A stretch of DNA of 64,000 nt from Balneolia bacterium (GCA_022565795.1 JAIUMA010000001.1:62001-126000), one strand, 5' to 3'; shown: positions 38,201 to 58,878, numbered from the stretch's first letter. The notes: generated from the letters alone by a model not told the origin. Program-made: numbers and translations.

Positions 38201-38216
38201 TGCAAAACCTGTGCCA
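38201..38216 (-). promoter_or_regulatory. Sigma54-type -24/-12 promoter for the WecG/TagA gene
   Basis: Minus strand reads TGGCAC-AGGTT-TTGCA: a full match to the RpoN consensus (TGGCAC-N5-TTGCA) with GG-N10-GC spacing, ending 43 bases before the ATG at 38158. The best of five such elements in the EPS locus. Confidence 0.8.
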
Positions 38217-38319
38217 TACATACAATACGTGCATTCAGCAAAAACCAGGGCTTTTATGAGACATAAATGGAAAAATCAATACCCAACTTTACTCAGCTGG
38301 TAACAATTCTACCCAGGAG

Positions 38320-39264
38320 TTAAGATTGTCCTTCCTGTGAAAACCGGTGGCCATTGAGCTGTTGCACCTCTTCATTACTAAGCTTCTTATTCACATTCCG
38401 GATGTCGGTAATTTGCAGATCGAAATCTCCAGTAGATACAAAAAGCAGATCACCTTCGACACGGATAGTGCCAGGTTCAGAGATGGATCTTATGTCTGAA
38501 ATAATGCTTTTCCAAAAGAAAAACCTATCATGATTAATAAAGCTGTACGGCGTGCCCCAGGGTGATGCAAATGGAGCGTAATTCGAAGCCCGTATGAAGG
38601 CATCACAGCGTGAAGCCTTGTTTTTCCAGTCCATTTGTCCATCTCCCGGAATCTCGTGTCTTTTAAAGTAAGACCTTTGAGACAACTCCTGTACCCTTCC
38701 ATCAGGAACCTGATTGTCGATCAGGTCGGTTAGAAGCATTCCAATGAGATCAATTCCTTCTTTAGCACATTTCAGACTTACAGAGAGACCGGTATCTGTG
38801 GGTTCGGCAGGTATACGGGATTCGTAAATTACGTTTCCTGTATCTACTCCTTCTGTAATTCTGTGAAGAGAAACTCCGTGATGCGGTTCTTCGTTAAAAA
38901 TTGACCAGCTTGGCGTATTTAAACCTGCGTATTCCGGTAGTCGTCCGGGGTGTAAATTGAATGCGCCCATTTTTGCAGCATCAATTACTTCAGAATGTAT
39001 CAGGTAAAGCGAGTGAACATTGAGAAGTATGTCAATTTTATTTTTGATCATCCAATTGGCAAACTCCGGCTTCTTTACGTTTTCTGCCGGAAATACCTCA
39101 CAGCCAATTTTTGAAGCTAGCGTATATACAGGAGAGGTCGAATTCTCATCGCCCGATCCGGTTAGAACACCTTTCAGATTGAAATCAAACCTGCGGTTAT
39201 AAAGTAGCTTTAGCGTTTGTAGTCCTGCTGACTCTTCAGCGGCCAATAGTATGTTGATGCTCAT
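38320..39264 (-). CDS. Formyltransferase family protein (N10-formyl-THF dependent type)
   Basis: 314 residues. The N-terminal formyltransferase fold has the catalytic asparagine/histidine segment GAFNLHPGRLPEYAGLNTPSWSI and the downstream GVSLHRITEGVDTGNVIYESRIP, equivalent to the N-H-D triad of methionyl-tRNA formyltransferase and of sugar N-formyltransferases. The C-terminal part (WKNKASRCDAFIRASNYAPFASPWGTPYSF) resembles the OB-like Formyl_trans_C. It is not a standard Fmt because the tRNA-binding loop looks different and it lies beside an adenylation/monooxygenase module. Likely role: formylating an amino sugar or a carrier-bound amino acid. It is divergent from the flavin monooxygenase gene across 286 bases. 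Confidence 0.8.
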   Translation of the reverse strand: MSINILLAAEESAGLQTLKLLYNRRFDFNLKGVLTGSGDENSTSPVYTLASKIGCEVFPAENVKKPEFANWMIKNKIDILLNVHSLYLIHSEVIDAAKMGAFNLHPGRLPEYAGLNTPSWSIFNEEPHHGVSLHRITEGVDTGNVIYESRIPAEPTDTGLSVSLKCAKEGIDLIGMLLTDLIDNQVPDGRVQELSQRSYFKRHEIPGDGQMDWKNKASRCDAFIRASNYAPFASPWGTPYSFINHDRFFFWKSIISDIRSISEPGTIRVEGDLLFVSTGDFDLQITDIRNVNKKLSNEEVQQLNGHRFSQEGQS

Positions 39265-39459
39265 TTGTTATCTCAGATGCCGGATAAAACCTTTTTACAC
39301 CAGCTGAATTTGTATGTGTGAAATATTGTAACAGTGTGGAACCAAGTTACGGGAATAGGATTGTAAAAATGAAGGGAAATTGGGACTATGTAAATTATTT
39401 TCGTCTTTTGTTCATCCAAATGAATATATAAGATATTCTAATACCATAAAGTCATTCGT

Positions 39460-39475
39460 TGGCATACTCATTGCA
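39460..39475 (+). promoter_or_regulatory. Sigma54-type -24/-12 promoter for the NRPS-like module
   Basis: TGGCAT-ACTCA-TTGCA, GG-N10-GC, 76 bases before the ATG at 39551. It differs from consensus only at the last -24 base. The rest of the 39265-39550 gap is AT-rich and holds no other signal I can name. Confidence 0.75.
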
Positions 39476-39550
39476 ATTCAACTTTAGTTTATGAGTCCTT
39501 TCAATTTCACACCTTACATACTTGTCGGTTGGGTTTGCACATAAAACTAT

Positions 39551-40567
39551 ATGGATATAAAACTATTTACAACTACTCCTCAATCGGTTGACTTTGAGGG
39601 TCCCGAGTTTTTAAATGAATTAAAAAATATTGCACGACTAAGCGAGAAGCACGGGTTCCGTGGTACGCTCATATATAGCGATAACCGCCTTGCAGATCCG
39701 TGGATGCTGGCCGGGCTTATTATGTCTGAAACCCGGAACCTCATACCAATGGTAGCCCTGCAGCCAGTGTATATGCATCCGTACACGGTAGCCAAGAAAA
39801 TCTCAACTCTGGCTCTTCTGTATAACAGACCGGTTGCCATGAATCTGATTGCTGGTGGATTTATTAATGATCTCAAAGCTTTGGACGATGACACACCACA
39901 CGATAAGCGCTACGACAGGCTATGCGAATACACTGAAATTATACAGCAGCTGCTAACTTCACGACGGCCCGTTACCTATGAAGGTGAATTCTACCGAATT
40001 AAGAATTTAAAACTACAGCCAGAGTTGCCGGAGAATCTTCAGCCTGAGTACTACCTGTCAGGTTCTTCTGAGGCTGCCAAGGAAACGGCCAATAGACTTG
40101 GAGCAACTTTAATTGAGTATCCGGAGCCTCCCGAAGCTTATACTGCAAATAACGGAGCTACCGCTCGTAAACTGGTTGGCATTAGAATTGGTGTACTAAC
40201 AAGAGACAACCATGATACAGCATGGGCCATAGCCCGATCACGCTTTCCGAATACCCGTGAAGGTCAACTTTCACATCTGCTGGCCACGAAAGTATCTGAT
40301 TCTCAGTGGCACAAAAAACTATCAGATCAGAAGCTGGAAGACGATCAGGAGAATACTGAACCTGTATACTGGATGGGACCTTTCAAACACTACCAAACTT
40401 TCTGCCCTTATCTTGTAGGTGATGTTAACGAGGTTTCTAATGAAATCAGTAACTACATCGAAAAAGGATGCTCTTTATGTGTACTTGACATTCCGGTGAG
40501 TGAAGAAGAGCTCGAATACACCGTTGAAGCTTTTAAACGTGCAAGTGAACTTGCTGTAGCAAGATGA
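39551..40567 (+). CDS. Luciferase-like flavin-dependent monooxygenase
   Basis: 338 residues. LLM-class (SsuD-like) FMNH2-dependent oxygenase. Typical segments: IARLSEKHGFRGTLIYSDNRLADPWMLAGLIMSETRNLIPMVALQP at the N-terminal barrel, AMNLIAGGFINDLKAL, HDKRYDRLCEYTEIIQQLL, VTYEGEFYRIKNLKLQP and YYLSGSSEAAKETANRLG. In known systems relatives oxidise sulfonates or carrier-bound amino-acid units; the NRPS-associated branch (MupA/Atu3671-like) is often found with formyltransferase and adenylation domains, which are its neighbours here. It overlaps the adenylation gene by 4 bases (ATGA) and is the first gene after a sigma54-type promoter. Confidence 0.88.
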   Translation: MDIKLFTTTPQSVDFEGPEFLNELKNIARLSEKHGFRGTLIYSDNRLADPWMLAGLIMSETRNLIPMVALQPVYMHPYTVAKKISTLALLYNRPVAMNLIAGGFINDLKALDDDTPHDKRYDRLCEYTEIIQQLLTSRRPVTYEGEFYRIKNLKLQPELPENLQPEYYLSGSSEAAKETANRLGATLIEYPEPPEAYTANNGATARKLVGIRIGVLTRDNHDTAWAIARSRFPNTREGQLSHLLATKVSDSQWHKKLSDQKLEDDQENTEPVYWMGPFKHYQTFCPYLVGDVNEVSNEISNYIEKGCSLCVLDIPVSEEELEYTVEAFKRASELAVAR

Positions 40568-42162
40568 TGCTCTACGACTACTCCCGCCTGCAGTCTGAAA
40601 TCAGGTCCGATGCTCCTGCTATAACTATGGGTTCGAAAACTCTTACCTATGGCGATCTGGAAAAGCAGAGCAATCAACTTGCTCATGTGCTTTTGGAGAA
40701 AGGCCTGAAGCCGGGTGACAGGGTTTGCTTATTTGCTGAAAAGAATCCGGATACAATTGTTGCAATGCTGGGTGTGATGAAAGCCGGAGGCGTTTATGTC
40801 CCTCTTGACATTAACAGCCCGGCTGAACGCATCAGCCGAATGGTTTTGTCGTCCTTTCCTGCCTTTATCCTTACAGATAAAAAAGCTGAGGCTGCTTTTC
40901 AAGAGCTTCGCAATACTGATTCATATATACCTGGTATTCCAGTTATTTGGTGGTCAGATTCTGAAAATTCATTTAAAGTAAATACTGCTTTTTCAAAATC
41001 TGATGTAATACATGCCGAAAACATCCCATATGCGGTAGTTCGAAACCCTGAAACAGCTGCGCATATCCTGTTTACATCCGGCTCTACTGGTCTGCCCAAA
41101 GGAGTTGTTATTAAGCATAGTAACGTAACGGCATTTGTTGCTTGGGCTGTAGACTATTTCGATATGAAACCGGGAGAAAGAAACTCGGGACATTCCCCAC
41201 TTCACTTCGATCTTTCAACCTATGATATTTACGGTACCTTTGCGGCCGGCGGACATTTATTTCCTGTGCCAGTCGATATGAGCGTACATCCAGTGAAACT
41301 GGTTGAGTTCATCCGTGACAATAGATTAACACAGTGGTTTTCTGTTCCTTCTGCACTTAACTATCTGGCCCGGTTTAAAGCTGTACCTGAGAGCGGATTT
41401 CCGGATTTAAAGCGGCTAATCTGGTGTGGTGAAGTATTTCCGCTTTCTGGTCTGCAATACTGGGTGAAGAGTCTGAATGATGTACAGTTTACTAATCTAT
41501 ACGGCCCAACGGAAGCAACCATTGCGAGTAGCTTTTTTACATTATCAGACTTTCCGGAAAAAAATATTCCAATTGGCAAAGCCTGCAGCAATGAGGGGCT
41601 TTTGATTTTGGACGATGACATGAAACCAGTTAGAAACGGAGAAAAAGGCAACTTATATATATCAGGTGCTGGTCTGAGCCCCGGGTATTGGGTAAGCCCT
41701 AACCCAAATGTAGATCACCAGCTGCCCCCTTCACCATTTGTGTTTTTTGAGAACGAAAGCGGTGAACAGGAGCGTATTTATAAGACTGGAGACCTTGCAT
41801 CAATTGGAGAAGATGGTTTGGTTTATTTCCATGGTCGTGCAGATTATCAGATAAAAAGTCGTGGATACCGAATCGAGCTCGGCGAAATAGAGGCAGCGCT
41901 TAGTAAAAGCGACATTTTACGTGAGTTTGCGGTGGTTCCTGTCGAAAAAGGGGGGTTTGAAGGAACCTCAATCGGATGTGCATTTGTGCTAGCCGAAGAC
42001 GTAAGTGGCAACGGGCGTCCTGAGCCCAGGATAAAAAAAACATTGCAGGAGCTTGTGCCACCTTATATGATTCCTCATTTTTGGAAAGCATATGATAAGC
42101 TGCCAAGAAATGCTAATGGGAAGATCGACAGAAGAAAACTGTCTGATCACTTTGAACAATAG
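40564..42162 (+). CDS. Stand-alone amino-acid adenylation enzyme (NRPS A-domain)
   Basis: 532 residues. It activates a carboxylic acid, most likely an amino acid, with ATP and loads it on a carrier protein. Core motifs in order: AHILFTSGSTGLPKGVVIKHSN (A3), LHFDLSTYDIYGT (A4), NLYGPTEATIASSF (A5), YKTGDLA (A7), FHGRADYQIKSRGYRIELGEIE (A8) and LPRNANGKIDRRKL (A10 with the catalytic lysine). The Asp in FDLS corresponds to the residue that binds the alpha-amino group, so an alpha-amino acid substrate is favoured. No condensation, carrier or thioesterase domain is fused; the carrier is encoded by the next gene. Confidence 0.92.
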   Translation: MMLYDYSRLQSEIRSDAPAITMGSKTLTYGDLEKQSNQLAHVLLEKGLKPGDRVCLFAEKNPDTIVAMLGVMKAGGVYVPLDINSPAERISRMVLSSFPAFILTDKKAEAAFQELRNTDSYIPGIPVIWWSDSENSFKVNTAFSKSDVIHAENIPYAVVRNPETAAHILFTSGSTGLPKGVVIKHSNVTAFVAWAVDYFDMKPGERNSGHSPLHFDLSTYDIYGTFAAGGHLFPVPVDMSVHPVKLVEFIRDNRLTQWFSVPSALNYLARFKAVPESGFPDLKRLIWCGEVFPLSGLQYWVKSLNDVQFTNLYGPTEATIASSFFTLSDFPEKNIPIGKACSNEGLLILDDDMKPVRNGEKGNLYISGAGLSPGYWVSPNPNVDHQLPPSPFVFFENESGEQERIYKTGDLASIGEDGLVYFHGRADYQIKSRGYRIELGEIEAALSKSDILREFAVVPVEKGGFEGTSIGCAFVLAEDVSGNGRPEPRIKKTLQELVPPYMIPHFWKAYDKLPRNANGKIDRRKLSDHFEQ

Positions 42163-42177
42163 GAAATACATACTTTA

Positions 42178-42462
42178 ATGAATAACAAATCGGATCAGTT
42201 TATGGCGGAGGCTGCTTTAAAACAAAACGCGACAGATAACCGAGTGCATATGGTTCTTTGTGATCAACTATTGCTGGACTCGGTAGATCCTGACACAGAT
42301 CTTTTCGAAGAAGGATTACTCGACTCTATGGCGCTTGTGAATCTTATGATGGCTCTCGAACAAGAGTTCTCAATTATGATTGCACCTGAAGACTTAGATA
42401 TGGAAGATTACAGAAGCATGGAGAGCATTGTTTCCATGGTAAATCGCATGCAGTCTATCTGA
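42178..42462 (+). CDS. Acyl/peptidyl carrier protein
   Basis: 94 residues, of which about 20-94 form a four-helix carrier domain. The phosphopantetheine attachment serine is S50 in FEEGLLDSMALVNLMMALEQEF, followed by the helix III segment IAPEDLDMEDYRSMESI. It lies 15 bases after the adenylation gene and would carry the activated aminoacyl group for oxidation or transfer. It is closest in style to D-alanyl/aminoacyl carrier proteins that work with a stand-alone A-domain. No phosphopantetheinyl transferase gene is in the window. Confidence 0.9.
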   Translation: MNNKSDQFMAEAALKQNATDNRVHMVLCDQLLLDSVDPDTDLFEEGLLDSMALVNLMMALEQEFSIMIAPEDLDMEDYRSMESIVSMVNRMQSI

Positions 42463-42486
42463 CGAATATTGAAAATCGAAGTTGCT

Positions 42487-43611
42487 ATGAATCTTGCTAA
42501 AACAGCTCAGCCCCTCAGGCCATCACCCTCTTCGTCTTTTAAAATACGTGCTTTTACCCCTGGTGATATTGAATCGGTTGTCCAGATGTCTATCGAGCAT
42601 TTCCCGCAGTGCCGACTGGTTTCTCCAGGGTATCTGTATGAAACCATTGACGACTTATATTTCAAAGACACCTTTTCTTTTGATGGAATAGACAGCCTTG
42701 TTGCAGTTGACCCGAATGGTACTGTTTCCGGTTTTTTGGGAGTAACTCCCAAAAAGTTTCGATATCAGGGTGAAACTATTCTTGCCTCAATGTGTAATCA
42801 CCTTATGGCCTCAGAAGAAGCACGGTCTGCACTGGTTCCAATGAGGCTTTTACAGCAATTTTTATCAGGACCTCAAAAGTTTTCGTACGCTGACGGATCT
42901 GTGGAATCCACTCGTTTACTTTGGAAAAGATTAGGTGGCGAGCCCTCATTTAGTAACAGCGTGTATTATAAAGTTCCCCTTCGGCCGATGTCCTTTGGAA
43001 CCAGACCACTTCAGCAGCGTTTCCCCAATTCTCTCAGAAAGCCAATTAAAAAGATTAGTTATGGCGCAGATTATTTATTTGGAGTTGCCCGCCTGCCCTT
43101 CTCTCGCAGAAAGCAGCCTGACGTTAGATTAAGCCCAATAGGCATCGATCAAATCTTTGAAGGTTTAAATCGAATCTGGAGGTCAAAAGAAATTTACCCG
43201 GAAACAAGTACTTCAGATTTAGACAAAATATTCCGATTACTCAAGAATGATCCCCGGAATGGAACTTTGCACCATATAGGCATCTGGAACAATCGTGATA
43301 TACTTACAGGCTGGTTTATTTACTATGCTTCGGCCGGAGGTGTGTGTGAGGTTATCCAGGCCGTTTCTCTCCCAGGCAAAGAAACGGAGCTATTTGAGTC
43401 AATTTGCTGGCATGCTTATAATGAGGGAGGGACTGAACTATCCGGGCGAGCCATTCCGTCTCAAATAGGAACTCCTTTTACCACAAAAGCTTTTAGCATG
43501 CCCGGTCGAATGTGGACCTTGTTTCATTGTAAAGATGATGGTTTAGCGAGAGTATTACATTCCGACAAAGCCTTCCTTACCCGTATGGAAGGCGATTTGT
43601 GGCTTATTTAG
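42487..43611 (+). CDS. GNAT-like acyltransferase
   Basis: 374 residues from the ATG at 42487; the longer TTG start at 42469 has less support. The N-terminal half has a GNAT pattern: FKIRAFTPGDIESVVQMSIEHFP, LVAVDPNGTVSGFLGVTPKKFRYQGETI, ASMCNHLMASEEARSALVPMRLLQQFL (motif A) and SYADGSVESTRLLWKRLGGE (motif B). The C-terminal half (about 190-374) is a second GNAT-like domain (NGTLHHIGIWNNRDILTGWFIYYASAGG). Two tandem half-GNAT domains recall the FemAB/Eis type. Its place after the carrier protein suggests that it moves the carrier-bound acyl group to a sugar or lipid acceptor. A bidirectional terminator follows. Confidence 0.7.
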   Translation: MNLAKTAQPLRPSPSSSFKIRAFTPGDIESVVQMSIEHFPQCRLVSPGYLYETIDDLYFKDTFSFDGIDSLVAVDPNGTVSGFLGVTPKKFRYQGETILASMCNHLMASEEARSALVPMRLLQQFLSGPQKFSYADGSVESTRLLWKRLGGEPSFSNSVYYKVPLRPMSFGTRPLQQRFPNSLRKPIKKISYGADYLFGVARLPFSRRKQPDVRLSPIGIDQIFEGLNRIWRSKEIYPETSTSDLDKIFRLLKNDPRNGTLHHIGIWNNRDILTGWFIYYASAGGVCEVIQAVSLPGKETELFESICWHAYNEGGTELSGRAIPSQIGTPFTTKAFSMPGRMWTLFHCKDDGLARVLHSDKAFLTRMEGDLWLI

Positions 43612-43698: not shown

Positions 43699-44916
43699 CT
43701 ATTTCACGTCCCGCTCTGTACGGATCCAGTCGACTTCACGTCCTTTTCTAAAGGTGTTGAGATACAAACGAATTTTCCAAATTATATACTTTGGTAAATG
43801 GAGCAGCGATTTATATAACTCTTTGTCTGCACCACCTACGTATAGACAAATGAAAACATAAAGAAAACCCATAACTCCCAAAGTAAACCAAAGCCCGGCA
43901 ATAACCGGTGAAAGGAATCCGAAAATCGATAGCCCAACAGACAGTACAATCATCGCCATTGTAATCACCATCATATTTACAAAAGGAGGCGTAATCAAAT
44001 CCAGGAATGTGTCCAGGCGTGAAAATGATCTTTCCGTAATGGCCTGTTTAAAGAAAGAACCGGCATAAGCTCTTATTATCTGAAAGCGTCCCATTTCCCA
44101 TCTCGATCGTTGAGACTCAGCGTTACTAGACTGAACGGGCATTTGAGCCCAAACTGTAGCCTCAGGGGCAAAATCAATTTTTTCACCCGCCTGAAGCAAG
44201 ATAAGGCCATACTCTACATCTTCTGTCAGCGACCAGGCCTGCCATGGAGTTTTACGAAATACGCTATGATGGAAACACATTCCGTTTCCGCGAAGCCCCA
44301 TATTGAAGCCCAAAGCTTTTCTTCCAAGCGGCTTCACATAATTGTACATCATAAATCCAATTCGTGTCGCCTCTATGCTCCAGTTACCGGGTTGCCGAAG
44401 AACTAAATCCGAGCTTTGTATAACCCGGCTTCCTGACTCAAGGTAGTGGTTCATCACTTCAAGATAATTGCCGGAAACCAGACTATCCGAATCGACAACA
44501 ATAAATGCATCGTATCTTGATTTCTTATCCCTGGCTACAGCGTACCCCATAATGGTATCAAATGCCCAGCGTAAGGCATGTCCCTTACCCTTTTTAGTTT
44601 CATGATGCCTTTCCAGAACATTTGCACCAAGTTTCGAAGCAATTTCTGCTGTTTTGTCCGTACAGTTATCGGCGATCACAAACACATCGTACAGCTTTCT
44701 GGGATATATCAAACCTGAAAGGCTGTAGATTGTTTTAGAAATTATTTTTTCTTCATTATGCGCCGGAACAACTATAGCAAAGCGTCTTTTAGTGCTACTT
44801 TTGAAATCCGTTTTTTGCTTTGCTCCAATAGCAATTACAGCCAATATGAACTGATAGCCAAGAAGCAGAAAGAAGAAAATGAGCAGTAAAGTAAAAAGTA
44901 TATTGGCAAGGATCAT
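43699..44916 (-). CDS. Processive GT2 family membrane glycosyltransferase
   Basis: 405 residues. One N-terminal membrane helix, a cytosolic GT2 domain, then two to three C-terminal helices (about 305-355). Catalytic motifs are complete: RRFAIVVPAHNEEKIISKTIYSL, VDSDSLVSGNYLEV (DxD), SLTEDVEYGLILLQ (TED base) and ESQRSRWEMGR (QxxRW). The QxxRW motif is the mark of processive beta-glycan synthases such as cellulose, hyaluronan or poly-GlcNAc synthases. The gene starts inside the stop codon of a GH9 glycanase gene, a pairing reminiscent of cellulose-type systems. It is the last gene of the unit that starts at the polysaccharide deacetylase. Confidence 0.9.
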   Translation of the reverse strand: MILANILFTLLLIFFFLLLGYQFILAVIAIGAKQKTDFKSSTKRRFAIVVPAHNEEKIISKTIYSLSGLIYPRKLYDVFVIADNCTDKTAEIASKLGANVLERHHETKKGKGHALRWAFDTIMGYAVARDKKSRYDAFIVVDSDSLVSGNYLEVMNHYLESGSRVIQSSDLVLRQPGNWSIEATRIGFMMYNYVKPLGRKALGFNMGLRGNGMCFHHSVFRKTPWQAWSLTEDVEYGLILLQAGEKIDFAPEATVWAQMPVQSSNAESQRSRWEMGRFQIIRAYAGSFFKQAITERSFSRLDTFLDLITPPFVNMMVITMAMIVLSVGLSIFGFLSPVIAGLWFTLGVMGFLYVFICLYVGGADKELYKSLLHLPKYIIWKIRLYLNTFRKGREVDWIRTERDVK

Positions 44917-46640
44917 AAAGTTTCCTGTACACTATATGGTTTTGAATAATCTGATAATGAGCTCATGACCCACGCGAGTATAGCCGTAAAATTAATTGCC
45001 GGCTCGCTTACGAAGTAGTTCCGAAAAGCATCTTCAAAGTTTTTTGCCGGGTAGGGTGAAATTTCCCGATCATTAAGAAAAACGTAGTTATTGGGCCCGC
45101 CTACAAGCATGCCCGGCACAGGATTGCTAAAGTTGCCCACTTTTGAAAGTTGATGATACGGATTGCGTACAGCTCTATACCCTACGCCTGTAATCTGCGA
45201 AAGATTTAATGGATTTCTTCCCATTACAAAATGAAGCTGATCCAGCGCGGCTTCTCTGTACGCAGTATTACCTGTAATCTTCCAGGCCTGCACTAAATCA
45301 TGGGCATATGCTAAGCCTACACTGTTTGAGCCCCAGTAGTATTCCGTGTGTTTAAGAAGATTATCGTAGTTGTTTCTTTTGTGTGTATCGAGCAGCTGAT
45401 CAGCATGTCTGATCAAAGCTGTTTTAACGTCTTCTTTACTTTGGCTGAAAAGGCCGTCGGTATCGCTGAAGTAGAAAGCATGAAGGGCCAGGCTATGAGC
45501 ATTGCGCCAGCTAATTGGATGTACAGGTCTAAGCTGAATTCGGTTTAGATGATTGATGAAAAAATCAAGATACTGACGCTCAGAAGTGAGATTGTATAGC
45601 TCAATCGCTGCCCAGAGCCTCTCATCGCTATCATTTGTATCACCATATTCCCCGCCTGACACATCCGGCGGGTTTCTGAATCCTCCCAAAGGCAGATTCA
45701 TAGGGTTAAGAATGAGATAGTTCCAGGCTTTGAGAGCGGCGTTTTCGAGTTCCTGTGCAAAGTTGGGGTTATATGGATACATAACCCTTGCACCTATGGC
45801 AGCCGTTGCTGCAAACGATGCAGTTGCTGCAGAGCTCGGTTCAAACAGATAACGGACAGAGGGATCAGTATGTGGCAGGAATTCACCAATCCATCGCTTT
45901 TGTGAGACTTTATGGAAAAGTGCCCCGTCGCTTCGCTGCATGGAAAGCAGCCATCTTAGCGCCCAGCTGATTTCATCAAGAACATCTGGTATACCGTTTC
46001 CGGACTCTGGTATGCCTAATTGACCATCTGAAAAACGATCGGGATTCTCAGCGTACATGTAGAGAAGAAGTGATGCGCTGAGTGTGGTATTTACTGTGAA
46101 CTTGTTGTAGTCACCTGCATCATGCCAGCCTCCTGTAACATCAATTCGCTGTTCCGGATTGTCATAAAAAGGAGCGTCGTCGAGGTGACAAATCTCGTAA
46201 CTCCATTCATCACCCAAGTCAACGCTAACTCCGCAACGATGGTAGTAGTAACTACGAATTATTGTTTCCAGAGCTCCAGCATATACTTTGGCCCCTACTG
46301 AAAAAGGTGATGAATGTACCTGATGATTGTCCCGCATGCGAAGAATAAATGAACCTGAGTCATTAAACTCTGAGAAGTCAATTATACCAACAACATCACC
46401 TGAAGCAGGATCCGGATCTCTGAATACTCGTATTGAATCTGTGAATACGACTTCATGTGTTTGTGAGTTTACTAATTCGAAATAATAGCCAGTATCGGGA
46501 CTGTTAACCAGGTAGGCAATTTTAGGCGTGTCCGTCTCATAGCCAGTCTGGTTCACTGATATAAACGTTTTATACTCGTTTCCCGAACAGGAAAAAAGTA
46601 TAAATGCAAAAGCAAGAACTATGAGATTGGAGTGATTCAT
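44913..46640 (-). CDS. GH9 family glycoside hydrolase lipoprotein
   Basis: 575 residues. Lipoprotein signal (MNHSNLIVLAFAFILFSCSG, lipobox LFSC). An N-terminal immunoglobulin-like CelD_N domain (about 28-120: FISVNQTGYETDTPKIAYLV) precedes the GH9 (alpha/alpha)6 barrel. Catalytic regions: DVTGGWHDAGDYNKFTVN (about 167-182, the two aspartates), the histidine segment VMGRNPLNLSQITGVG, and a C-terminal FVSEPAINFTAILAWV with the acid glutamate. GH9 enzymes cut beta-1,4-glucans or related beta-glycans. The gene overlaps the GT2 gene by 4 bases, so it probably trims or releases the polymer made by that synthase. Confidence 0.92.
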   Translation of the reverse strand: MNHSNLIVLAFAFILFSCSGNEYKTFISVNQTGYETDTPKIAYLVNSPDTGYYFELVNSQTHEVVFTDSIRVFRDPDPASGDVVGIIDFSEFNDSGSFILRMRDNHQVHSSPFSVGAKVYAGALETIIRSYYYHRCGVSVDLGDEWSYEICHLDDAPFYDNPEQRIDVTGGWHDAGDYNKFTVNTTLSASLLLYMYAENPDRFSDGQLGIPESGNGIPDVLDEISWALRWLLSMQRSDGALFHKVSQKRWIGEFLPHTDPSVRYLFEPSSAATASFAATAAIGARVMYPYNPNFAQELENAALKAWNYLILNPMNLPLGGFRNPPDVSGGEYGDTNDSDERLWAAIELYNLTSERQYLDFFINHLNRIQLRPVHPISWRNAHSLALHAFYFSDTDGLFSQSKEDVKTALIRHADQLLDTHKRNNYDNLLKHTEYYWGSNSVGLAYAHDLVQAWKITGNTAYREAALDQLHFVMGRNPLNLSQITGVGYRAVRNPYHQLSKVGNFSNPVPGMLVGGPNNYVFLNDREISPYPAKNFEDAFRNYFVSEPAINFTAILAWVMSSLSDYSKPYSVQETL

Positions 46641-48731: not shown

Positions 48732-48747
48732 GACAATAAGCGTGCCA
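48732..48747 (-). promoter_or_regulatory. Sigma54-type -24/-12 promoter for the deacetylase unit
   Basis: Minus strand TGGCAC-GCTTA-TTGTC: the -24 half is perfect (TGGCACG), the -12 half TTGT instead of TTGC, with GG-N10-G spacing. It ends 58 bases before the ATG at 48674. Confidence 0.65.
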
Positions 48748-48896: not shown

Positions 48897-50192
48897 CTAA
48901 GATTCTGCGGCCTTTTCACGCAGTCTTTTGGTTCTGAACTGAACATAAGACACCGGCATTTTAAGTAGTCCTTTGTTGATGTACTGAACCTGCATAAGCT
49001 GAATTTCTTTACGCGTGTGTTTGTAAATGAAAGACAATAGTTTTGTTGCCTTATTGAGCGGTTTATTAACACCTTTAGCTTGCGGGTGTTCGCTTATAAC
49101 TGCTGTGTAGTTAGAAAATGTCTTATCAGTAAAATCAAATTTATACGACTCTTCTCCCCTCAAAAGGTCGACACGCTTTATTCCTGTTTTTAGCGCATCA
49201 TCGATTACATCCAGCAAAAGCCCTATCCCGGGCCTGTATTTGGCCGATACAGCATCATCACTGAATCCGCTTATATAGTCAAAATAGCGTCCATTATATA
49301 AAATAAGCATTCGGGTAGCGCAAATACCCCCTTCATCTATGGCATGTTTGAGCCAGAGGGTTTTGTTATTAAATGCATCAAATACTATTCGCTTAAAAAA
49401 CTCTACAAAGCGTTTGTCAAAAAAGACTCCCGTATAACCAATAGCATTCCATCTGTTTTGATGAAGTGAAATAATTCGGTTTAAAGCGTCCTCAAGCTCT
49501 TCCCTGTTTTCAACTTTTACTATTTTGTACCCTTTGTCTGTTTCGGGCTTCTGGGCTTTCAGACACTGCCTGAATCTTCTTCTTACGCTTCCGGAATCCT
49601 TATTTTTTATGAAGTCAGAAAGGTTTTGATCCTGACTTAGATCAATGTAGGGGCATGTATCAGTAGCATTTACTTCAACGTTTCTACTATTATTATTGAA
49701 GCGAGGGAAAAGGTAGTTATGAATAAAGTTACCTTCATTTATATTCACAAAATGAAATCTGTACTTTGACCACTCCTCGTTGTCAAGCATTTCTATAAAG
49801 TAATCTGCTATGATTTCTTCGAAACCCGGTTTTATAATAAAATCGAGGAAGTCACTTATTCCGTAAAAATCAGAAAAGCCAAGCGTTTCATTTGGATTTC
49901 CACCACTTCCAAGAAGCTGAATACGTTGTTGTGCTTTAATACCAAGTATATTCGTTTTACCGATAAAAAGTGGCAGGATGGCAATCAACTCACCATTTTT
50001 TTGAATAGTATGTACAAACAGGCTTCTATTTGGGTTGTTACCAAATACTTCCCACCAATTGTTCACCCAGCTGTAGGACATAAACATCGTCTGCCCAGAT
50101 TCTCCCGCTAATGCTTCCCAGTCCATTTTTAGCTGTTTAAGAGAATTATTGTCCCTGAAAATCTTTACGTCCAACTGTTCTATCGTACTCAT
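48897..50192 (-). CDS. CelD/BcsL (FemAB-like) GNAT acyltransferase
   Basis: 431 residues. The Acetyltransf_6 pattern is clear: KQLKMDWEALAGESGQTMFMSYSWVNNWWEVFG, LIAILPLFIGK, LLDVIDDALKTGIKRVDLLRGEESYKFDFTDK. The family acylates sugar or glycan intermediates and includes BcsL-type proteins of cellulose systems and the FemAB-like protein of exosortase-A loci. It is last in the long Wzz-to-acyltransferase unit, 30 bases behind a GT4 gene. A possible role is adding an acetyl or aminoacyl group to the EPS repeat. Confidence 0.85.
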   Translation of the reverse strand: MSTIEQLDVKIFRDNNSLKQLKMDWEALAGESGQTMFMSYSWVNNWWEVFGNNPNRSLFVHTIQKNGELIAILPLFIGKTNILGIKAQQRIQLLGSGGNPNETLGFSDFYGISDFLDFIIKPGFEEIIADYFIEMLDNEEWSKYRFHFVNINEGNFIHNYLFPRFNNNSRNVEVNATDTCPYIDLSQDQNLSDFIKNKDSGSVRRRFRQCLKAQKPETDKGYKIVKVENREELEDALNRIISLHQNRWNAIGYTGVFFDKRFVEFFKRIVFDAFNNKTLWLKHAIDEGGICATRMLILYNGRYFDYISGFSDDAVSAKYRPGIGLLLDVIDDALKTGIKRVDLLRGEESYKFDFTDKTFSNYTAVISEHPQAKGVNKPLNKATKLLSFIYKHTRKEIQLMQVQYINKGLLKMPVSYVQFRTKRLREKAAES

Positions 50193-50222
50193 ATTGATCT
50201 CTTAGATATGTGTTGAATATTA

Positions 50223-51467
50223 TCAAGCGATTGTTACCTGCTCTGGTGCTTGAGCAGGTTTTTCATGTTCTGTACTAAACAGATGTTTAATTGCAGTGTC
50301 AATTTCGCTGCACACACTTTTCCAGTCATATTTTTGATGGACCAACTTGTATCCATTGTCTTTCAGTCTGTTTCTTAGCTCATAATTCTCAAATAGTGTG
50401 CAAATAGCATTGGCAAAATCTTTAGGCTGATCTTCTATGAGAATGTTTTCCCCGTGGCTAACGTCAATTCCCTCACATCCTATTGATGTGGAAACTACCG
50501 CCTTTTTCATTGCCATAGCTTCCATCACCTTAAGCCTTGTACCTCCTCCCATTCTGAGAGGCACGATATATACAGCCGCCTTATCTATGTATGGGCGGGT
50601 GTCATCTACAAAGCCTGTGAACTCGACATTTTCTGATTTTAATGATGTAACCGATTCCGGTGGGTTCTTGCCAATGATGGTTACCTTGCAATCGGGGTAT
50701 TTTTCCAGCACCAAGGGGAAAACTTCTTCCAGGAAAAACTCGATACCATCAACGTTGGGCAGGTACTGCATCATGCCAACAAAAACAAGCGAGTGAGGAT
50801 TTGTAACGTTTTCTTTTGGCGTGAAGAATTCTGTGTCAACTCCATTGGGCACTAGATACTTGGGTGTATCCGGCACAGTTCTTTCAAGTTCCTGAATATC
50901 TCGCTCGGATGTTACTAGTAAAGCATCCTGCCGGTTCAGCGTATGTGTCTCCTCATGGAAAAAAATCTTTGCCTGATGCTTGTAAAACCATCTCCTGAGA
51001 GGATTTGAAGCAATCGTCATTCTCCGGAAATTATCGTATTCTACGTTATGGCAGTTCACGATACGCTTCACATTATGTTTACTGCTATACATTTCCATTA
51101 CCGGAAATTCGCTAATGGATAAGTCGAACTGCTCTTTTTGAAATAGTTGATCTATTTTCTCCTCAAATTCAGAAGATTCCGTTACGATCCTCCAGGAGCT
51201 TTTGTTCATAAATACGGTTTTAAGTTTCGCCAATTCACGGTTCAAACCATCATATCTATGATCGATAAAAAGTGTTTGACCCTTTAATTCAGGAAACTCT
51301 TCTACCAGTAGTTCTTCCTGTTCTTTAGTACCAAATCCGGCAATTGTAACATCATAGTTTGCCAGTAAATGTTTAAGCACATGATATACCCTCAGTGCAC
51401 CTCCAAAAGAAGGATTAACCGGGTTGTAAGGTACCAGGTGCAATATTTTCAACTTTGATTTACTCAT
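50223..51467 (-). CDS. GT4 family glycosyltransferase
   Basis: 414 residues. GT-B glycosyltransferase with N-terminal LKILHLVPYNPVNPSFGGALRVYHVLKHLLANYDVTIAGFG, NCHNVEYDNFRRMTI, and C-terminal LVFVGMMQYLPNVDGIEFFLEEVFPLVLEKYPDCKVTIIGKNPPE...VPLRMGGGTRLKVMEAMAMKKAVVSTSIGCEGIDV. The glycine-rich loop and the E-x7-E region are intact. The style recalls the exosortase-associated GT4 (TIGR03087-like), from memory. It is separated from the flippase by one base. Confidence 0.9.
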   Translation of the reverse strand: MSKSKLKILHLVPYNPVNPSFGGALRVYHVLKHLLANYDVTIAGFGTKEQEELLVEEFPELKGQTLFIDHRYDGLNRELAKLKTVFMNKSSWRIVTESSEFEEKIDQLFQKEQFDLSISEFPVMEMYSSKHNVKRIVNCHNVEYDNFRRMTIASNPLRRWFYKHQAKIFFHEETHTLNRQDALLVTSERDIQELERTVPDTPKYLVPNGVDTEFFTPKENVTNPHSLVFVGMMQYLPNVDGIEFFLEEVFPLVLEKYPDCKVTIIGKNPPESVTSLKSENVEFTGFVDDTRPYIDKAAVYIVPLRMGGGTRLKVMEAMAMKKAVVSTSIGCEGIDVSHGENILIEDQPKDFANAICTLFENYELRNRLKDNGYKLVHQKYDWKSVCSEIDTAIKHLFSTEHEKPAQAPEQVTIA

Positions 51468-51468
51468 C

Positions 51469-52971
51469 TCATTTTTTGAAATATGGGGATATTTTATTCA
51501 GTCCTTTTGTCATCTGATCTCGTATCAGTCTGGTCTCATCGGGCTGGAATGTCCTGATCACAAAAATTGCAATTAGGTATACGATTCCGGCGATTAAGAG
51601 ATTTATCATCCAGTACAGTCCAGTCTGGATTAAGAAATAAGTTGGAATAATCATTAATGCCGTAGCTATTACGGGCTTAGCAAAATAGGAAAAACGAAGC
51701 CCTTTGAAGTACGATTTCGGCAAGATCCATATAGCGCATATCATTACAAACAGCTCTGTTATCAATGTCGCGAAAGCAGCTCCTATGCCGCCATTCATGT
51801 ACAAGTCCTGCGTGTATGGTATCAGGACTAAGTTTGCTGATATATTCACAAAGATTGCAACAAGACCTACAACAGCCCATGCATTTTGTTTATTCGCTGC
51901 TCCCATTATGGCGCTACCGAGTATGATGTCGATATAAATAACCGGAATACTCAGGGCAAAAATTTGCAATATGATGATGGAGGGCGTGTATTCCTCAAGT
52001 CCCATAAAAAAGTGAACAATATCTCCGGAAAACATAAATATGACCGCTGCTGTTGGAATCCCAAGAATTATCATGAGCCTGATGCTTCCCTGAAGCGTGT
52101 ATTCAAGAATTCCTTTAGTGTCCTTCCACAATTTAGCGAATACGGGAAATACGGCCGTTCGGTAAAGCAGTGGCAAGACCATTACTATATCGAAAAAACG
52201 ATAGGCACCTCCATACCATCCGGTTACTTCCGTATTTGTTATAGAAGCAAGCATTAGTGCATCGATCCGATAATAAATCACAGAAAAAAGTGAGAACAAA
52301 AAGTAAGGCATACCGGAATGCAGCAGCCCGAATATTTGCTTATCGAACGTGTAGCTAACTTTCACATACTTCCTTGAAAACCAAAAAACTACGATCAGAT
52401 TAAGCAGAGCACCAATAGTAATTATTATGGCCATCACGGTGGAGTCCGCACCGTAAAGCAGAGCTATCACCGAAACAGATGCTACAAATACTCTTTCCGT
52501 AATAGTCCCGATTGACGGATATTCCATTTTCTCAATTCCCTGAAAGAATGCAGAAAAGGCCGTCGTACTTCCCTCCCAAAGTTTGGCTATTGCCAGAATG
52601 AGAATCAGCAGGTTTACGTGATCAGAATACCCCAGTATGTCAGAGAACAATAGAATTAGACCTATGGATAGAACCCATAAGCCAATTCGGAGCAGTATGT
52701 AGCTGCTCATTATTTTAGAGCCGATTTTAACGGATCGTGATACCTCTTTAGGTATCAGATAGTTTCCGCCAAAATCGATAAAAAGGCCGAGAATCATTTT
52801 CACGCTTAAAGCGAGATATAATCGGCCAAAATCTTCGCTTCCTAAATATCTGGGTAAGAAGTAAAGCAGAACAAATCCGGCTATCCAGCCAACAATCTGA
52901 GCTGCAAACATAACCGAAAAATTTCTCGCCACGCCTTTGCTTACGGACGATTTCGTATTTTCATCGGTCAT
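51469..52971 (-). CDS. Wzx-type oligosaccharide flippase
   Basis: 500 residues with about 12-14 membrane helices. The N-terminus KGVARNFSVMFAAQIVGWIAGFVLLYFLPRYLGSEDFGRLYLALS is the classical MOP/Wzx start. It would move lipid-linked repeat units across the inner membrane for polymerisation by the adjacent Wzy. It ends one base before the next gene and starts one base after wzy. Confidence 0.9.
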   Translation of the reverse strand: MTDENTKSSVSKGVARNFSVMFAAQIVGWIAGFVLLYFLPRYLGSEDFGRLYLALSVKMILGLFIDFGGNYLIPKEVSRSVKIGSKIMSSYILLRIGLWVLSIGLILLFSDILGYSDHVNLLILILAIAKLWEGSTTAFSAFFQGIEKMEYPSIGTITERVFVASVSVIALLYGADSTVMAIIITIGALLNLIVVFWFSRKYVKVSYTFDKQIFGLLHSGMPYFLFSLFSVIYYRIDALMLASITNTEVTGWYGGAYRFFDIVMVLPLLYRTAVFPVFAKLWKDTKGILEYTLQGSIRLMIILGIPTAAVIFMFSGDIVHFFMGLEEYTPSIIILQIFALSIPVIYIDIILGSAIMGAANKQNAWAVVGLVAIFVNISANLVLIPYTQDLYMNGGIGAAFATLITELFVMICAIWILPKSYFKGLRFSYFAKPVIATALMIIPTYFLIQTGLYWMINLLIAGIVYLIAIFVIRTFQPDETRLIRDQMTKGLNKISPYFKK

Positions 52972-52972
52972 A

Positions 52973-54535
52973 TCAGTCTTTTTCTTCTTCTCCGGATTCA
53001 GATTTAGCTAATTGATGTTCATTATTGATTTTCTCAATGACCGGAAGCATCCCCATCAAACATCCCAGATAAAACATATTCCTGGAATACGTTAGCTGAA
53101 GATCAAAAAATGAAACGACCATCTGATTAATCACTGCAATGGTTATCACTGCCGTAATAGCCTTAAGCCAGGGATCTTCAAGTCTCATGAAAACTTTGGT
53201 GGATTTTGCGACAAATGAATTGAAGAAAAACCAAAAAATGAAAAAGCCGACTGCCCCCATTTTGACGAAAACCCAGTATATCTGATTGTGCGGGATATAG
53301 TCCATGAGTGGAAACGCGATATTTACCAAGGGAATGGGTTGCTCGTAGGCATTTCCGAACCCGACACCCAGTATCGGATTGTTAAGGGCTGTTTGTGCAA
53401 GGTTATAATTTTCGTTTTCCCTGTACAGATTAGAAGAATAATCGCGATAGTTTTCAGTTTTATCTGCCTGCCCTATTCCTGATTTAAATTTCTGAACGGG
53501 GCCACCGATAGGATGTGATGAACTCCAAAATGCTGCACCGTAGATAAATAGTCCAACCATTATAGGTACGAAGTAATGCATAAACGCTATTCGCTTAGCC
53601 ATAGGTAGCAAAATGATAAAAGCACCTAGAGAGACAAATAACGAACCAAATGTTGCACGCCGCTGAGCAACAATGAAACCCATGAGGATTGGCAAAAGCA
53701 TGACTAACAGGAAAATCCGCTGGCGATCATTAACTCTGTATGATAAAAAAGCCATAAGCAGAATAAACAAGGTCACAAAGAAGACGGCATCTTCATGGTT
53801 TGTGAGCACCTGAAACCCTCCGGTCGAAAATCCCATACCCACAAACCTTCCAACTCCCTGCAAAGCCTTGAAAGTTATCCCGATCAGGAATATCCAAAAT
53901 AGCGTATGGAGCTGCTGCTTGGTGTCGACAAGCTGGGGTACTATGATGAACATAATGCACAGGTAAAACAGAGCCCGTACTTCCCAAAGTGCAACCATGA
54001 AGTCTCCTCCCTGGCTCATACCATACCCGAAAAAAGCTACAATGCTTCCCATAAACATTAAAAAAGGAATCGGTACAGGTATACCCTTATACTTGAAATC
54101 TCTAAGCATGGAAGCGTGAAGCAATAAACCAGAACACAGAAAAAACAGATGTATTTCCGCCGGATTCATGAAACCCGAATGGATATAAGGTATATATGGT
54201 ATTTCCTTTAGATTATGGAAAAAGCGTACTTCGAACGTGATAGGGCTAAATCCCGGAATTGCGTACTGTTCGAACAACATTACGGTTGCCATAAGCATAT
54301 ACAGACTGTAAACCGGTTTAATGATACTCACCAGTAAAGCACACGTCATGTACATCATTGCGGCAACAAGAGCAATGTTGCCATCAAACATAAAAAGTCC
54401 GCCGAACATTAGCAGGGATGATGCAAGAAGCACAAGTAAAACAGGCGCACTCTCTTTGTCCAGGCCAAAAATCCCCAGGAAAGAATCTATGCCGGATGAA
54501 GTCCCTCTGTATGATTGTGATTTTACGCTGCTCAT
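52973..54535 (-). CDS. O-antigen ligase/polymerase family protein (Wzy-like)
   Basis: 520 residues from the ATG at 54535; a TTG at 54565 would make it overlap the small upstream gene. About 11-12 membrane helices with a large loop (about 370-430: SSNLYRENENYNLAQTALNNPILGVGFGNAYEQP), the Wzy_C region of O-antigen ligases and polymerases. It probably polymerises repeat units in the periplasm. Position between the 54-residue membrane protein and the Wzx flippase supports this. Confidence 0.88.
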   Translation of the reverse strand: MSSVKSQSYRGTSSGIDSFLGIFGLDKESAPVLLVLLASSLLMFGGLFMFDGNIALVAAMMYMTCALLVSIIKPVYSLYMLMATVMLFEQYAIPGFSPITFEVRFFHNLKEIPYIPYIHSGFMNPAEIHLFFLCSGLLLHASMLRDFKYKGIPVPIPFLMFMGSIVAFFGYGMSQGGDFMVALWEVRALFYLCIMFIIVPQLVDTKQQLHTLFWIFLIGITFKALQGVGRFVGMGFSTGGFQVLTNHEDAVFFVTLFILLMAFLSYRVNDRQRIFLLVMLLPILMGFIVAQRRATFGSLFVSLGAFIILLPMAKRIAFMHYFVPIMVGLFIYGAAFWSSSHPIGGPVQKFKSGIGQADKTENYRDYSSNLYRENENYNLAQTALNNPILGVGFGNAYEQPIPLVNIAFPLMDYIPHNQIYWVFVKMGAVGFFIFWFFFNSFVAKSTKVFMRLEDPWLKAITAVITIAVINQMVVSFFDLQLTYSRNMFYLGCLMGMLPVIEKINNEHQLAKSESGEEEKD

Positions 54536-54545
54536 GTCTGGCTTA

Positions 54546-54710
54546 TCACTGTTCAGGGACTTCAATCGTCCCCATCATAAAAAGCACATAAACTACCATA
54601 ATTGCGGAAATGGCTGCCGTAAGCATATAAGGAACCCTATCGTTCTTTGTGAACTTCGTGCCCCAAATAACCAGAAAGTGCAATATGATTAGCCCCAGAA
54701 GTATTTTCAT
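54546..54710 (-). CDS. 54-residue two-helix membrane protein between BY-kinase and Wzy genes
   Basis: The frame starts at the ATG at 54710, overlapping the stop codon of the kinase-like gene as TGATG, and stops 10 bases before the ATG of the Wzy gene. Its first helix is KILLGLIILHFLVIWG (about 2-17), then a charged turn KFTKNDRVPY and a second helix LTAAISAIMVVYVLFMMG (about 30-47), ending with an acidic tail. No family is recognised. The exact fit into a 4-gene overlap chain makes it a likely real gene; it might be an accessory of Wzy, Wzz or the kinase. Confidence 0.75.
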   Translation of the reverse strand: MKILLGLIILHFLVIWGTKFTKNDRVPYMLTAAISAIMVVYVLFMMGTIEVPEQ

Positions 54711-55426
54711 CACTTCTCAACTTTGTTGAACACATATCCAAGGAACTGCTTCTCTTCTATATGCTTAAAAACCTTTTCAAGTTCACCCTTTTTAGTCTTA
54801 TTAGCATTAACCACGCTTATAAGGCCATCGATTTCATTAATAAAGTGTACCGGAAAGTCTTCAATTGGAAGAATTGAGCACATGTCTACTATTACAAAGT
54901 CAAATTCATGCTTAACAGTGTTCAAAATCTGGCGGAGTATCAGCGTGTGCTCGATACCAGGCTTAAGGCGATGCACATCACCTATGGGCATGAGGTAAAG
55001 GTTTTCAAATGATGTGGGCACAACGCGTATTTTTTCATAGCAAAGGGCTTCAGCCAGACCGGGTGAAGATTCAGCACCAAAAACGTTATGCAAACTAGGA
55101 CGCTGAAAATTCATATCAATAATAAGCGTCTTCTGTTGATACCCACTGGCGAGTGATACGGCCATGTTAGCAGCTACAACGGTTTTTCCATCAGCCGGAC
55201 GTGCGCTCGTAATACCAACGGTTAGTTTGTTGTCGCCAAACGCCTTAGCAAGTCTTGAAAAGTTAAAGCTATTGTAATGCTTCCACTGAATGATTTCCTT
55301 GTCCGGCTTCTGCAAGACCTCAGCAGAAACCAATACAGGCAGTAAACCACCGTTTTTTCTTGGTGATTTATGATCTTTAAGAATGATAGAAGAGCTTGAT
55401 TCCTGCTTCACTTCCTGTGAATTCAT
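54710..55426 (-). CDS. CpsD/CapB-type ATPase (BY-kinase-like) without tyrosine cluster
   Basis: 238 residues. The MinD/ParA-like fold with VGITSARPADGKTVVAANMAVSLA (Walker A with GKT), KTLIIDMNFQRPSLHNVFGAESSPGLAEAL (Walker A' with D and RP) and FDFVIVDMCSILPIEDF (Walker B). BY-kinases normally end in a tyrosine-rich cluster that is phosphorylated; this chain ends GYVFNKVEK and has none, so autophosphorylation would differ. It probably partners with the Wzz-like protein whose gene lies 29 bases upstream, to set EPS chain length. Confidence 0.85.
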   Translation of the reverse strand: MNSQEVKQESSSSIILKDHKSPRKNGGLLPVLVSAEVLQKPDKEIIQWKHYNSFNFSRLAKAFGDNKLTVGITSARPADGKTVVAANMAVSLASGYQQKTLIIDMNFQRPSLHNVFGAESSPGLAEALCYEKIRVVPTSFENLYLMPIGDVHRLKPGIEHTLILRQILNTVKHEFDFVIVDMCSILPIEDFPVHFINEIDGLISVVNANKTKKGELEKVFKHIEEKQFLGYVFNKVEK

Positions 55427-55455
55427 CTATAGAACTCCGGTTTACCTGAAATTAA

Positions 55456-56778
55456 TTATGATAAGTAGGCTATAATTGGTTTTGGATAGGGTAAGTCAGC
55501 CTCTTTTCTGATGGTAGTATCCATTACTTCTGCAAGCGATACCAACCCAACACCCATAATCATACCCATCAGTAATCCAATGCTAAGAATTAGCCTTTTA
55601 TTGGGTGAAGATGGTCTTTCTGGAATATACGGAGCATCAAGTACCATAAACTGCTCACTACCCCTTCTTCCAATATCGCGGGTCATTTTTGCTTGCTCAA
55701 GGTTAACTCTCATGTCATTAAGAAGCCCTTCATAAATTCTGAGGGATGACTCAGACGAACCTGCCTGTTGAGTTGCTACAAAAAATCGTTGCATATCTGA
55801 AACCACACGACCACGCTGTTCATTTAGTTCAGCTCGTCGTGATTCCAGCGTAGACATTCGCGATTCAATAGCCGGTGGTATACGATTTACAAGCTGCTGG
55901 ATTTGAACAGCCATGCTTCTTACCCTTGGAAAACTCTCTGTAAACTGCTGTTGCAGCGTGTCGTACTCGCTTAAAAGTTCAGACAACTCAGACCCAAAGG
56001 GTGTTTCATCAACCGGTAGTCGGTACAAATACTGTATACCGTCTGCGGTCATTGCCGCCTCTTTATAATTGGAAATTGCAGTTAGCATGTCCTCATACCG
56101 GTACAAATCCCACTCTACGGTTTCAAGCTGATTCTCAACATTCTGTAATCGCGCCTGCATCGCATTGGTATCTGACGGAATATCCTGAAGCCTGGTCGAT
56201 GTCCTGTCAGTCTGCTGGTTCCGTAATTCATCAACGGTCTGTTGAAGCTGTTCCAGCTGATTGCTGAAGAAGGTAACCGTTTCCTCATTGGTTCTGTTTT
56301 CCAGCCTCAGCCTTGACGAAATAAAGTGGTTAGCAAGGATTGATGTACCGTCTCTTGCACGAACAGGGTCTGTATCACGGTAAGTAATTTCAAAAGAATC
56401 AGACGCTCTTGATGTAGTGTAAATATTTCTGCGCAGATTGGAAATAAGCAATTGCTTCTCGGATTCTGTCCGTAAGGTCCTGTCTAATCCAAGGCTGTCA
56501 ATAAGCATCTCCATAGCCGTACGGCTGTAAATGATTTCGTTAAATGAGTTCAGGCGATCCTCATTTGCGGAGGATGCTCCCATATTATACATCACTAATG
56601 GATTTAGTGTCTCATCCTTTAATACTAATATAGAGGTAGATGATTCGAATTTTGGTTCGATATACTGAAGAGCAACAACAGCTGCTCCAACAAAAAATAG
56701 TGGCGTTATTAAAAGGAGCAACCACCTTCTGCGAACTACATCCTTTATATTTTGTACAATTTCTTTTATGTCTTGCAT
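55456..56778 (-). CDS. Polysaccharide chain-length determinant (Wzz/GNVR type)
   Basis: 440 residues. One N-terminal helix (WLLLLITPLFFVGAAVVALQYIEP), a long periplasmic coiled-coil region (about 150-360: LQQTVDELRNQQTD, LESRRAELNEQRGRVVSDMQRF), a GNVR-like segment (RIYEGLLNDMRVNLEQAKMTR ... LDAPYIPERPSSPNKRLIL) and a C-terminal helix (ILSIGLLMGMIMGVGLVSLAEV). It controls polymer length with the downstream BY-kinase-like ATPase. The ATG is directly preceded by TTTGCACC. First gene of the Wzz-to-acyltransferase unit, divergent from the Wza-like exporter. Confidence 0.93.
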   Translation of the reverse strand: MQDIKEIVQNIKDVVRRRWLLLLITPLFFVGAAVVALQYIEPKFESSTSILVLKDETLNPLVMYNMGASSANEDRLNSFNEIIYSRTAMEMLIDSLGLDRTLRTESEKQLLISNLRRNIYTTSRASDSFEITYRDTDPVRARDGTSILANHFISSRLRLENRTNEETVTFFSNQLEQLQQTVDELRNQQTDRTSTRLQDIPSDTNAMQARLQNVENQLETVEWDLYRYEDMLTAISNYKEAAMTADGIQYLYRLPVDETPFGSELSELLSEYDTLQQQFTESFPRVRSMAVQIQQLVNRIPPAIESRMSTLESRRAELNEQRGRVVSDMQRFFVATQQAGSSESSLRIYEGLLNDMRVNLEQAKMTRDIGRRGSEQFMVLDAPYIPERPSSPNKRLILSIGLLMGMIMGVGLVSLAEVMDTTIRKEADLPYPKPIIAYLS

Positions 56779-56819
56779 GGTGCAAATGAGTTAATGTGAA
56801 TCACGTTTGCAGATATTAA

Positions 56820-56835
56820 AACAAGAGCCATGCCA
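56820..56835 (-). promoter_or_regulatory. Sigma54-type -24/-12 promoter for the Wzz unit
   Basis: Minus strand TGGCAT-GGCTC-TTGTT, GG-N10-G spacing, ending 42 bases before the ATG at 56778. Both halves deviate by one base from the consensus, so it is the weakest of the five. Confidence 0.5.
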
Positions 56836-56930
56836 AACGTGCCTGCTTTTGCAAAAAACACATTAGACCATCGTAATAAATGCGAATGTGGGCAATAGGA
56901 GCCGATTTTCAAAGTATGGGTTTGCAATAA

Positions 56931-56957
56931 ATTCGGTTGATTTAGAATCGACCGAAT
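56931..56957. promoter_or_regulatory. Inverted repeat between the two divergent EPS promoters
   Basis: ATTCGGTTGAT - 5 bases - ATCGACCGAAT, an 11-bp dyad with one mismatch. It lies about 95-110 bases upstream of the minus-strand sigma54-type element and about 155 bases upstream of the plus-strand one, the usual distance for an activator (UAS) site. The rest of the 404-base gap (56779-57182) is AT-rich without other clear signals. Confidence 0.55.
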
Positions 56958-57110
56958 CAGTTTTACACATCCCCCCTGAATGAATTTGTAAATATGCTAC
57001 TCTTTGTTCCGATATGTATTGATTTCAAATATGAGGAAACCCTAATAAGAGTGCCTATAGTACTTAATATCAAATACATACAAATACTGAAATGTAAAGT
57101 TTTAAAAGAT

Positions 57111-57126
57111 TGGCACATTTGTTGAC
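57111..57126 (+). promoter_or_regulatory. Sigma54-type -24/-12 promoter for the Wza-like unit
   Basis: TGGCAC-ATTTG-TTGAC: perfect -24 half, -12 half TTGA instead of TTGC, with GG-N10-G spacing, ending 57 bases before the ATG at 57183. Confidence 0.6.
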
Positions 57127-58876: not shown

Positions 58877-58878
58877 AT

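Follow-up and report, generated by a model that had tools for sequence, protein, structure and literature searches.

A probable sigma54 regulon for exopolysaccharide in a Balneolia bacterium, with a likely orphan activator and a degenerate activator domain as its possible brake

The 64-kb window (the whole stretch of DNA that was analysed) contains, at 37-64 kb, an exopolysaccharide (EPS) locus whose transcription units are preceded by short elements of the form TGGCAY-N5-TTG, which raises the question of whether these elements are sigma54 (-24/-12) promoters, which activator would drive them and how that activator might be restrained. A preliminary description had placed five such elements before five first genes, and all five are present there on the strands described, with start codons 41-75 bp downstream of the end of the -12 half. 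The element TGGCACAGGTTTTGCA (38203..38216, minus strand) lies before a WecG-type glycosyltransferase gene (37379-38158), and TGGCATACTCATTGCA (39460..39473, plus strand) before a luciferase-like/adenylation/carrier-protein unit; in a crude sigma54 matrix scan of the window these two are the top matches, with scores of 18.0 and 16.2, respectively. A polysaccharide deacetylase unit is preceded by TGGCACGCTTATTGTC (48734..48747, minus strand), the wzz-tyrosine kinase-wzy-wzx unit by TGGCATGGCTCTTGTT (56822..56835, minus strand), and the unit comprising wza, a PorQ-like gene, a degenerate activator domain (dAAA) and wecA by TGGCACATTTGTTGAC (57111..57124, plus strand). The scores of these remaining three (13.2, 12.6 and 10.7) are no better than those of some matches inside genes, so that these elements rest on conservation. 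The GG at -24, the spacing and the G of the -12 half are found in all five elements. The C of the -12 GC occurs in two, which carry the full TTGCA half, as had been reported; the other three read TTGTC, TTGTT and TTGAC, and this missing C is a weak point.

Exact matches to TGGCAY-N5-TTG number six in the window, five of them intergenic and one within a gene; the latter, at 40177 in the coding region of the luciferase-like gene, was set aside as a chance occurrence. Upstream of genes in the first 36.9 kb of the window there is no match. For the upstream DNA of the locus (1,746 oriented bases in the 36.9-64 kb part), the genome rate gives an expectation of about 0.017 against the five elements observed, close to the 0.02 of the earlier estimate. 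When spacers of 0-15 were tested (16 lengths), five matches fell at spacer 5, one at spacer 2 and none at the others, so only spacer 5 clusters; the spacer-2 readings before wza and the deacetylase gene (TTTGTTG, CTTGTTG) are largely the same sites reread and were not taken as additional elements. Across the whole genome, both strands included, there are 71 exact matches vs 62 for the reversed control pattern, and the pattern is therefore not enriched genome-wide. By simple open-reading-frame calls, about 10 of the 71 fall between genes with a gene downstream, and five of these are the elements of the EPS locus. The occurrence of the pattern thus says little by itself, and its positions say a great deal.

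The absence of rpoN had been named beforehand as a possible refutation, as had a lack of -24/-12 conservation. The genome encodes a single rpoN (one PF04552 match, E 1e-55), and the gene was found in 19 of 20 relatives tested, the exception being an assembly that is 80% complete. Conservation was followed in relatives that extend from congeners to members of other families within one order, with the element sought within 300 bp upstream, and it held at a fixed position and strand before orthologous genes. With our own genome included in each count, the element is found before wzz in 20 of 20 genomes, before wza in 19 of 19 upstream regions (G016 contributing twice, with two overlapping stretches), before the deacetylase gene in nine of ten, and before the luciferase-like gene in all four genomes. 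Before WecG it is found in three of eight, G002 and G053 carrying the same element; in the other five, the WecG match is a diverged gene (~30% identity) within another unit. Genes in the interior of operons are without the element, with few exceptions (1/18 for the tyrosine kinase, 3/17 for GT2). In the alignment of the wzz-wza gaps, both elements are the best conserved blocks amid diverged intergenic DNA, and the distance from the wzz element to the wza element is 275-280 bp in most genomes. Elsewhere in the same genome, further intergenic matches precede flgB, an Hsp20 gene and htpG (L076:2479, L074:2531 and L058:2527), all plausible sigma54 targets, and these elements suggest flagellar and heat-shock sigma54 promoters.

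The five units cover most genes of the locus. Unit 1 (36972..38158, minus strand) comprises the WecG/TagA glycosyltransferase and an Hpt-domain protein (Pfam PF03808 and PF01627), with cotranscription assumed. The Hpt-domain (histidine phosphotransfer) protein, at 36972-37349 or longer on the minus strand, lies directly downstream of the WecG gene and is possibly cotranscribed from the 38203 element. Unit 2 (39551..43611, plus strand) encodes a luciferase-like monooxygenase, an amino-acid adenylation enzyme, a free acyl carrier protein (42178-42462) and a protein at 42469-43611 that has no Pfam or NCBIfam match; several relatives have all four conserved at their EPS locus. Unit 3 (43699..48674, minus strand) holds the polysaccharide deacetylase, GT4, GH9 and GT2. 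Unit 4 (48897..56778, minus strand) encodes the Wzz-like protein, a tyrosine autokinase, Wzy, Wzx, a glycosyltransferase (stp1-like) and a FemAB-like acetyltransferase, and unit 5 (57183..63716, plus strand) a Wza-like export protein, a PorQ-like protein, dAAA, a WecA-like sugar transferase, an acyltransferase-like protein and GH5. The set expected of a Wzx/Wzy-type EPS locus is thus complete: Wzx, Wzy, Wzz-like protein, tyrosine kinase, Wza and initiating transferase. The preliminary description had taken the whole 37-64 kb locus for one RpoN regulon. The five units and with them most genes fit this view, the luciferase-like/adenylation/carrier-protein module among them. No sigma54 site was seen, however, before the activator gene considered below or before the formyltransferase gene (38320-39264), the latter in both genomes known to carry it, and for the distal genes of unit 5 (62-64 kb) read-through is assumed. 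The view of the whole locus as one RpoN regulon is accordingly partly supported, for five transcription units though not provably for every gene. Two genomes of the same genus (G004 and G005) are without a close Wza homologue, and the locus is therefore not universal within the genus.

The candidate activator, EpsAct, is a 335-aa NtrC-family protein encoded at contig position 127823-128830, 1.8 kb past the end of the window. It is intact in its AAA+ domain, Walker A and B motifs, GAFTGA, arginine fingers and Fis-type HTH; it has no receiver domain, and its N terminus is very short. Orthologues of EpsAct form one clade (SH-aLRT 91), and 17 other genomes, from several genera and families, encode one in or close to the EPS locus; in G001, no EpsAct was found in the nearly 20 kb examined downstream. 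Of 18 upstream regions of the EpsAct gene, none has a sigma54 element. Canonical sigma54 activators number four in our genome: EpsAct, two with a receiver domain and one on contig 19. The activator on contig 21 sits among flagellar-type genes.

A candidate activator binding site (UAS) was found midway between the divergent wzz and wza elements, where the inverted repeat TTTACACA-N15-TTTGTAAA (56962..56992) is the best match in the window. The second-best place in the window, TTTACACC-N13-TGTGTGAA (39294..39322), lies 166 bp upstream of the 39460 element and has a similar copy in G001 and none clear in G002. Their shared form, TTTACACA-N13-15-TGTGTAAA, is an aligned block in the wzz-wza gaps of relatives; among the 7-mers of 23 such gaps, its TGTGTAA half shows the strongest enrichment (12 occurrences vs 1.3 expected from shuffles), and in 17 of the 23 the best copy is no more than 25 bp from the midpoint. 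Taken individually, nine of the 23 scores fall short of p 0.06 vs shuffles. Upstream of the WecG and deacetylase units, copies are weak or absent, with none clear. A 27-bp palindrome in the wzz-wza gap (~56931-56957) was also considered as a UAS and dropped, as it is not conserved in relatives. The inverted repeat is probably the EpsAct binding site.

The third gene of the wza unit (58879..59697, plus strand) encodes dAAA, a degenerate sigma54-activator AAA+ domain (Pfam PF00158, AAA_lid_14), for which the closest solved structures by Foldseek are the sigma54 activators FlrC, NtrC1 and FleQ (model pLDDT 76, medium confidence). Across the 27 genomes compared, all of one order, the Walker-B DE is replaced by DQ, DN, NK or KG, a Glu-to-Gln change in most genomes; the arginine-finger segment FRxDLxxRL is lost together with both fingers; and GAFTGA is found in none, nor in a diverged relative from G016. 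The Walker A motif is retained in all but one of the 27 (in which the P-loop Lys is replaced), and the lid motif WPGN is present in all. The Fis HTH is absent, being vestigial in a few of the genomes, and the copy in our genome has none. When 245 genomes of the class were searched, strong matches (E <1e-99) came from 26 genomes, all in this order, with canonical activators far weaker (~1e-43 at best), and the family forms one clade (support 99). A dN/dS of ~0.1 in the two unsaturated pairs of relatives indicates that dAAA is under purifying selection and is not a decaying gene. Scanning contigs by means of the dAAA alignment gave no outside dAAA, the matches being generic canonical activators (26-33% identity), though the peptide patterns were too general to exclude one.

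In our genome, the dAAA and EpsAct genes are ~6 kb apart. In genus g20, dAAA is adjacent to EpsAct in opposite orientation, with its own sigma54 element in six of eight cases, and for most genomes of this genus the EpsAct-dAAA locus yielded neither a wza nor a wzz homologue. In the two that were fully read (L261 and L264), what remains is EpsAct, dAAA with a sigma54 element, and one GT2 with another sigma54 element. Mainly because of this pairing without wza and wzz, we interpret dAAA as a partner of EpsAct in regulation and not as an EPS enzyme. The reduced module of L261 and L264 sits among fatty-acid-synthesis and other housekeeping-type genes.

In the mechanism that we favour, the sigma54 promoters would switch on the units of one Wzx/Wzy-type exopolysaccharide locus, with EpsAct binding TTTACACA-N13-15-TGTGTAAA midway between the wzz and wza promoters and looping to both. 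The wza unit, itself in the predicted regulon, would then make dAAA, a protein that has kept the P-loop while the parts for ATP hydrolysis, sigma54 contact and DNA binding are gone, and that may enter or cap EpsAct rings, damping activation once the locus is on. Since dAAA is made from a regulon promoter, its action on EpsAct would amount to negative feedback.

Control in trans is established for activators without a regulatory domain of their own, PspF and HrpR/HrpS among them, and the ring of HrpR/HrpS is a mixed one (PMC7057263). EpsAct shares their layout of an AAA+ domain and an HTH, its N terminus being very short. The trans-regulators named in PMC7057263, PspA and HrpV, are to our knowledge not AAA+ proteins, whereas dAAA is itself an activator-like AAA+ domain. 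PspF E108Q, a Walker-B Glu-to-Gln variant, is described as defective in ATP hydrolysis with complex remodelling still possible (PMC4132715); most dAAA carry the same Walker-B change and additionally lack GAFTGA and the arginine fingers. Among the activator homologues with a defective GAFTGA (PMC3162934), VpsR, TyrR and YplP resemble dAAA in having no functional GAFTGA, and VpsR likewise controls a polysaccharide. As characterized there, however, these three are DNA-binding regulators thought to act without sigma54, whereas dAAA is mostly without an HTH, has also lost the Walker-B Glu and the arginine fingers, and travels with a canonical activator. Our search of open-licence literature turned up no account of a conserved partner that is without an HTH, hydrolysis-dead and paired with an activator.

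A link between sigma54 and surface polysaccharides has precedents. As described by Haft et al. 2006 (PMC1569441), PEP-CTERM/exosortase systems are under the control of PrsK-PrsR and sigma54. The present locus resembles them in its sigma54 motif with an upstream activator motif, its dedicated NtrC-family Fis-HTH protein and its EPS neighbourhood, and several of its EPS proteins are distantly related to XrtA-associated families (stp1, pepcterm_ChnLen, TyrKin). However, the sigma54 sites of those systems stand before PEP-CTERM genes and here they stand before EPS genes, and in Aquincola the EPS biosynthesis genes are apparently not RpoN1-dependent (PMC9850573). A PEP-CTERM/PrsR explanation was rejected on three grounds: EpsAct is without the receiver that PrsR-type proteins have, the EPS locus contains no exosortase, the single match of the genome lying on contig 11, and the scores of XrtA-family models against the locus proteins are below cut-off. 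The contig 11 match (L221) is a short exosortase-family protein (open frame of 181 aa) encoded elsewhere than at the EPS locus. Sigma54-associated EPS and cell-surface genes have also been surveyed (Francke et al. 2011, PMC3162934), with an enrichment in Myxococcia (PMC12316311); the relevant passages of both surveys likewise link EPS export and glycosyltransferase genes to sigma54 but, unlike the case here, describe no degenerate activator partner. Names beginning with Balneol- or Rhodotherm- do not occur in PMC12316311.

If the five elements were chance matches or the sites of another DNA-binding protein, one would point to a pattern hardly commoner genome-wide than its reversed control and to the three sites without the -12 C; yet spacer, strand and distance to the start codon are all fixed, the conservation at five genes is near-perfect, and flgB and heat-shock genes have the same element in front of them. 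This leaves such a reading very improbable, and the elements are almost certainly genuine sigma54 promoters. Such promoters could nevertheless be driven by another activator, from the receiver-domain pair or contig 19, with EpsAct serving otherwise. The genome does encode three further canonical activators, and clear copies of the candidate UAS occupy just two places in the locus, but we consider this unlikely given the recurrence of EpsAct orthologues at the locus across several genera and families of relatives, and the contig-21 activator has its place among flagellar-type genes. Gene neighbourhood and the candidate enhancer together argue that EpsAct is very probably the activator of these promoters, and to the joint reading, sigma54 promoters with EpsAct as their activator, we assign a probability of roughly 0.78.

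The role of dAAA is the more tentative part. It might be a required co-activator or structural subunit of a mixed ring like that of HrpR/HrpS, or an adaptor through which EpsAct is coupled to a signal or the EPS machinery: EpsAct, having no cis-regulatory domain, should need an input in trans, and HrpR with HrpS is an obligate hetero-hexamer (PMC7057263). The loss of GAFTGA, the catalytic Glu and both arginine fingers is, however, more than would be expected for a working motor subunit, and we hold these roles to be rather unlikely. A feedback brake on EpsAct comes slightly short of an even chance as the function of dAAA. On that reading, to be taken with similar reserve, dAAA made from EpsAct-driven promoters would join and poison EpsAct rings, giving a self-limiting switch conserved through the order.

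Sigma54 control near EPS loci was known already, for PEP-CTERM and surface genes; here, the EPS units themselves carry the promoters. The locus would offer a sigma54 regulon for exopolysaccharide that is clean and open to testing, in a lineage that a sigma54 survey leaves unnamed (PMC12316311). In dAAA, it presents a natural, conserved and apparently hydrolysis-dead activator domain tied to an activator without a regulatory domain of its own, and the dAAA-EpsAct pair bears on how such activators are restrained and on mixed AAA+ rings as switches.
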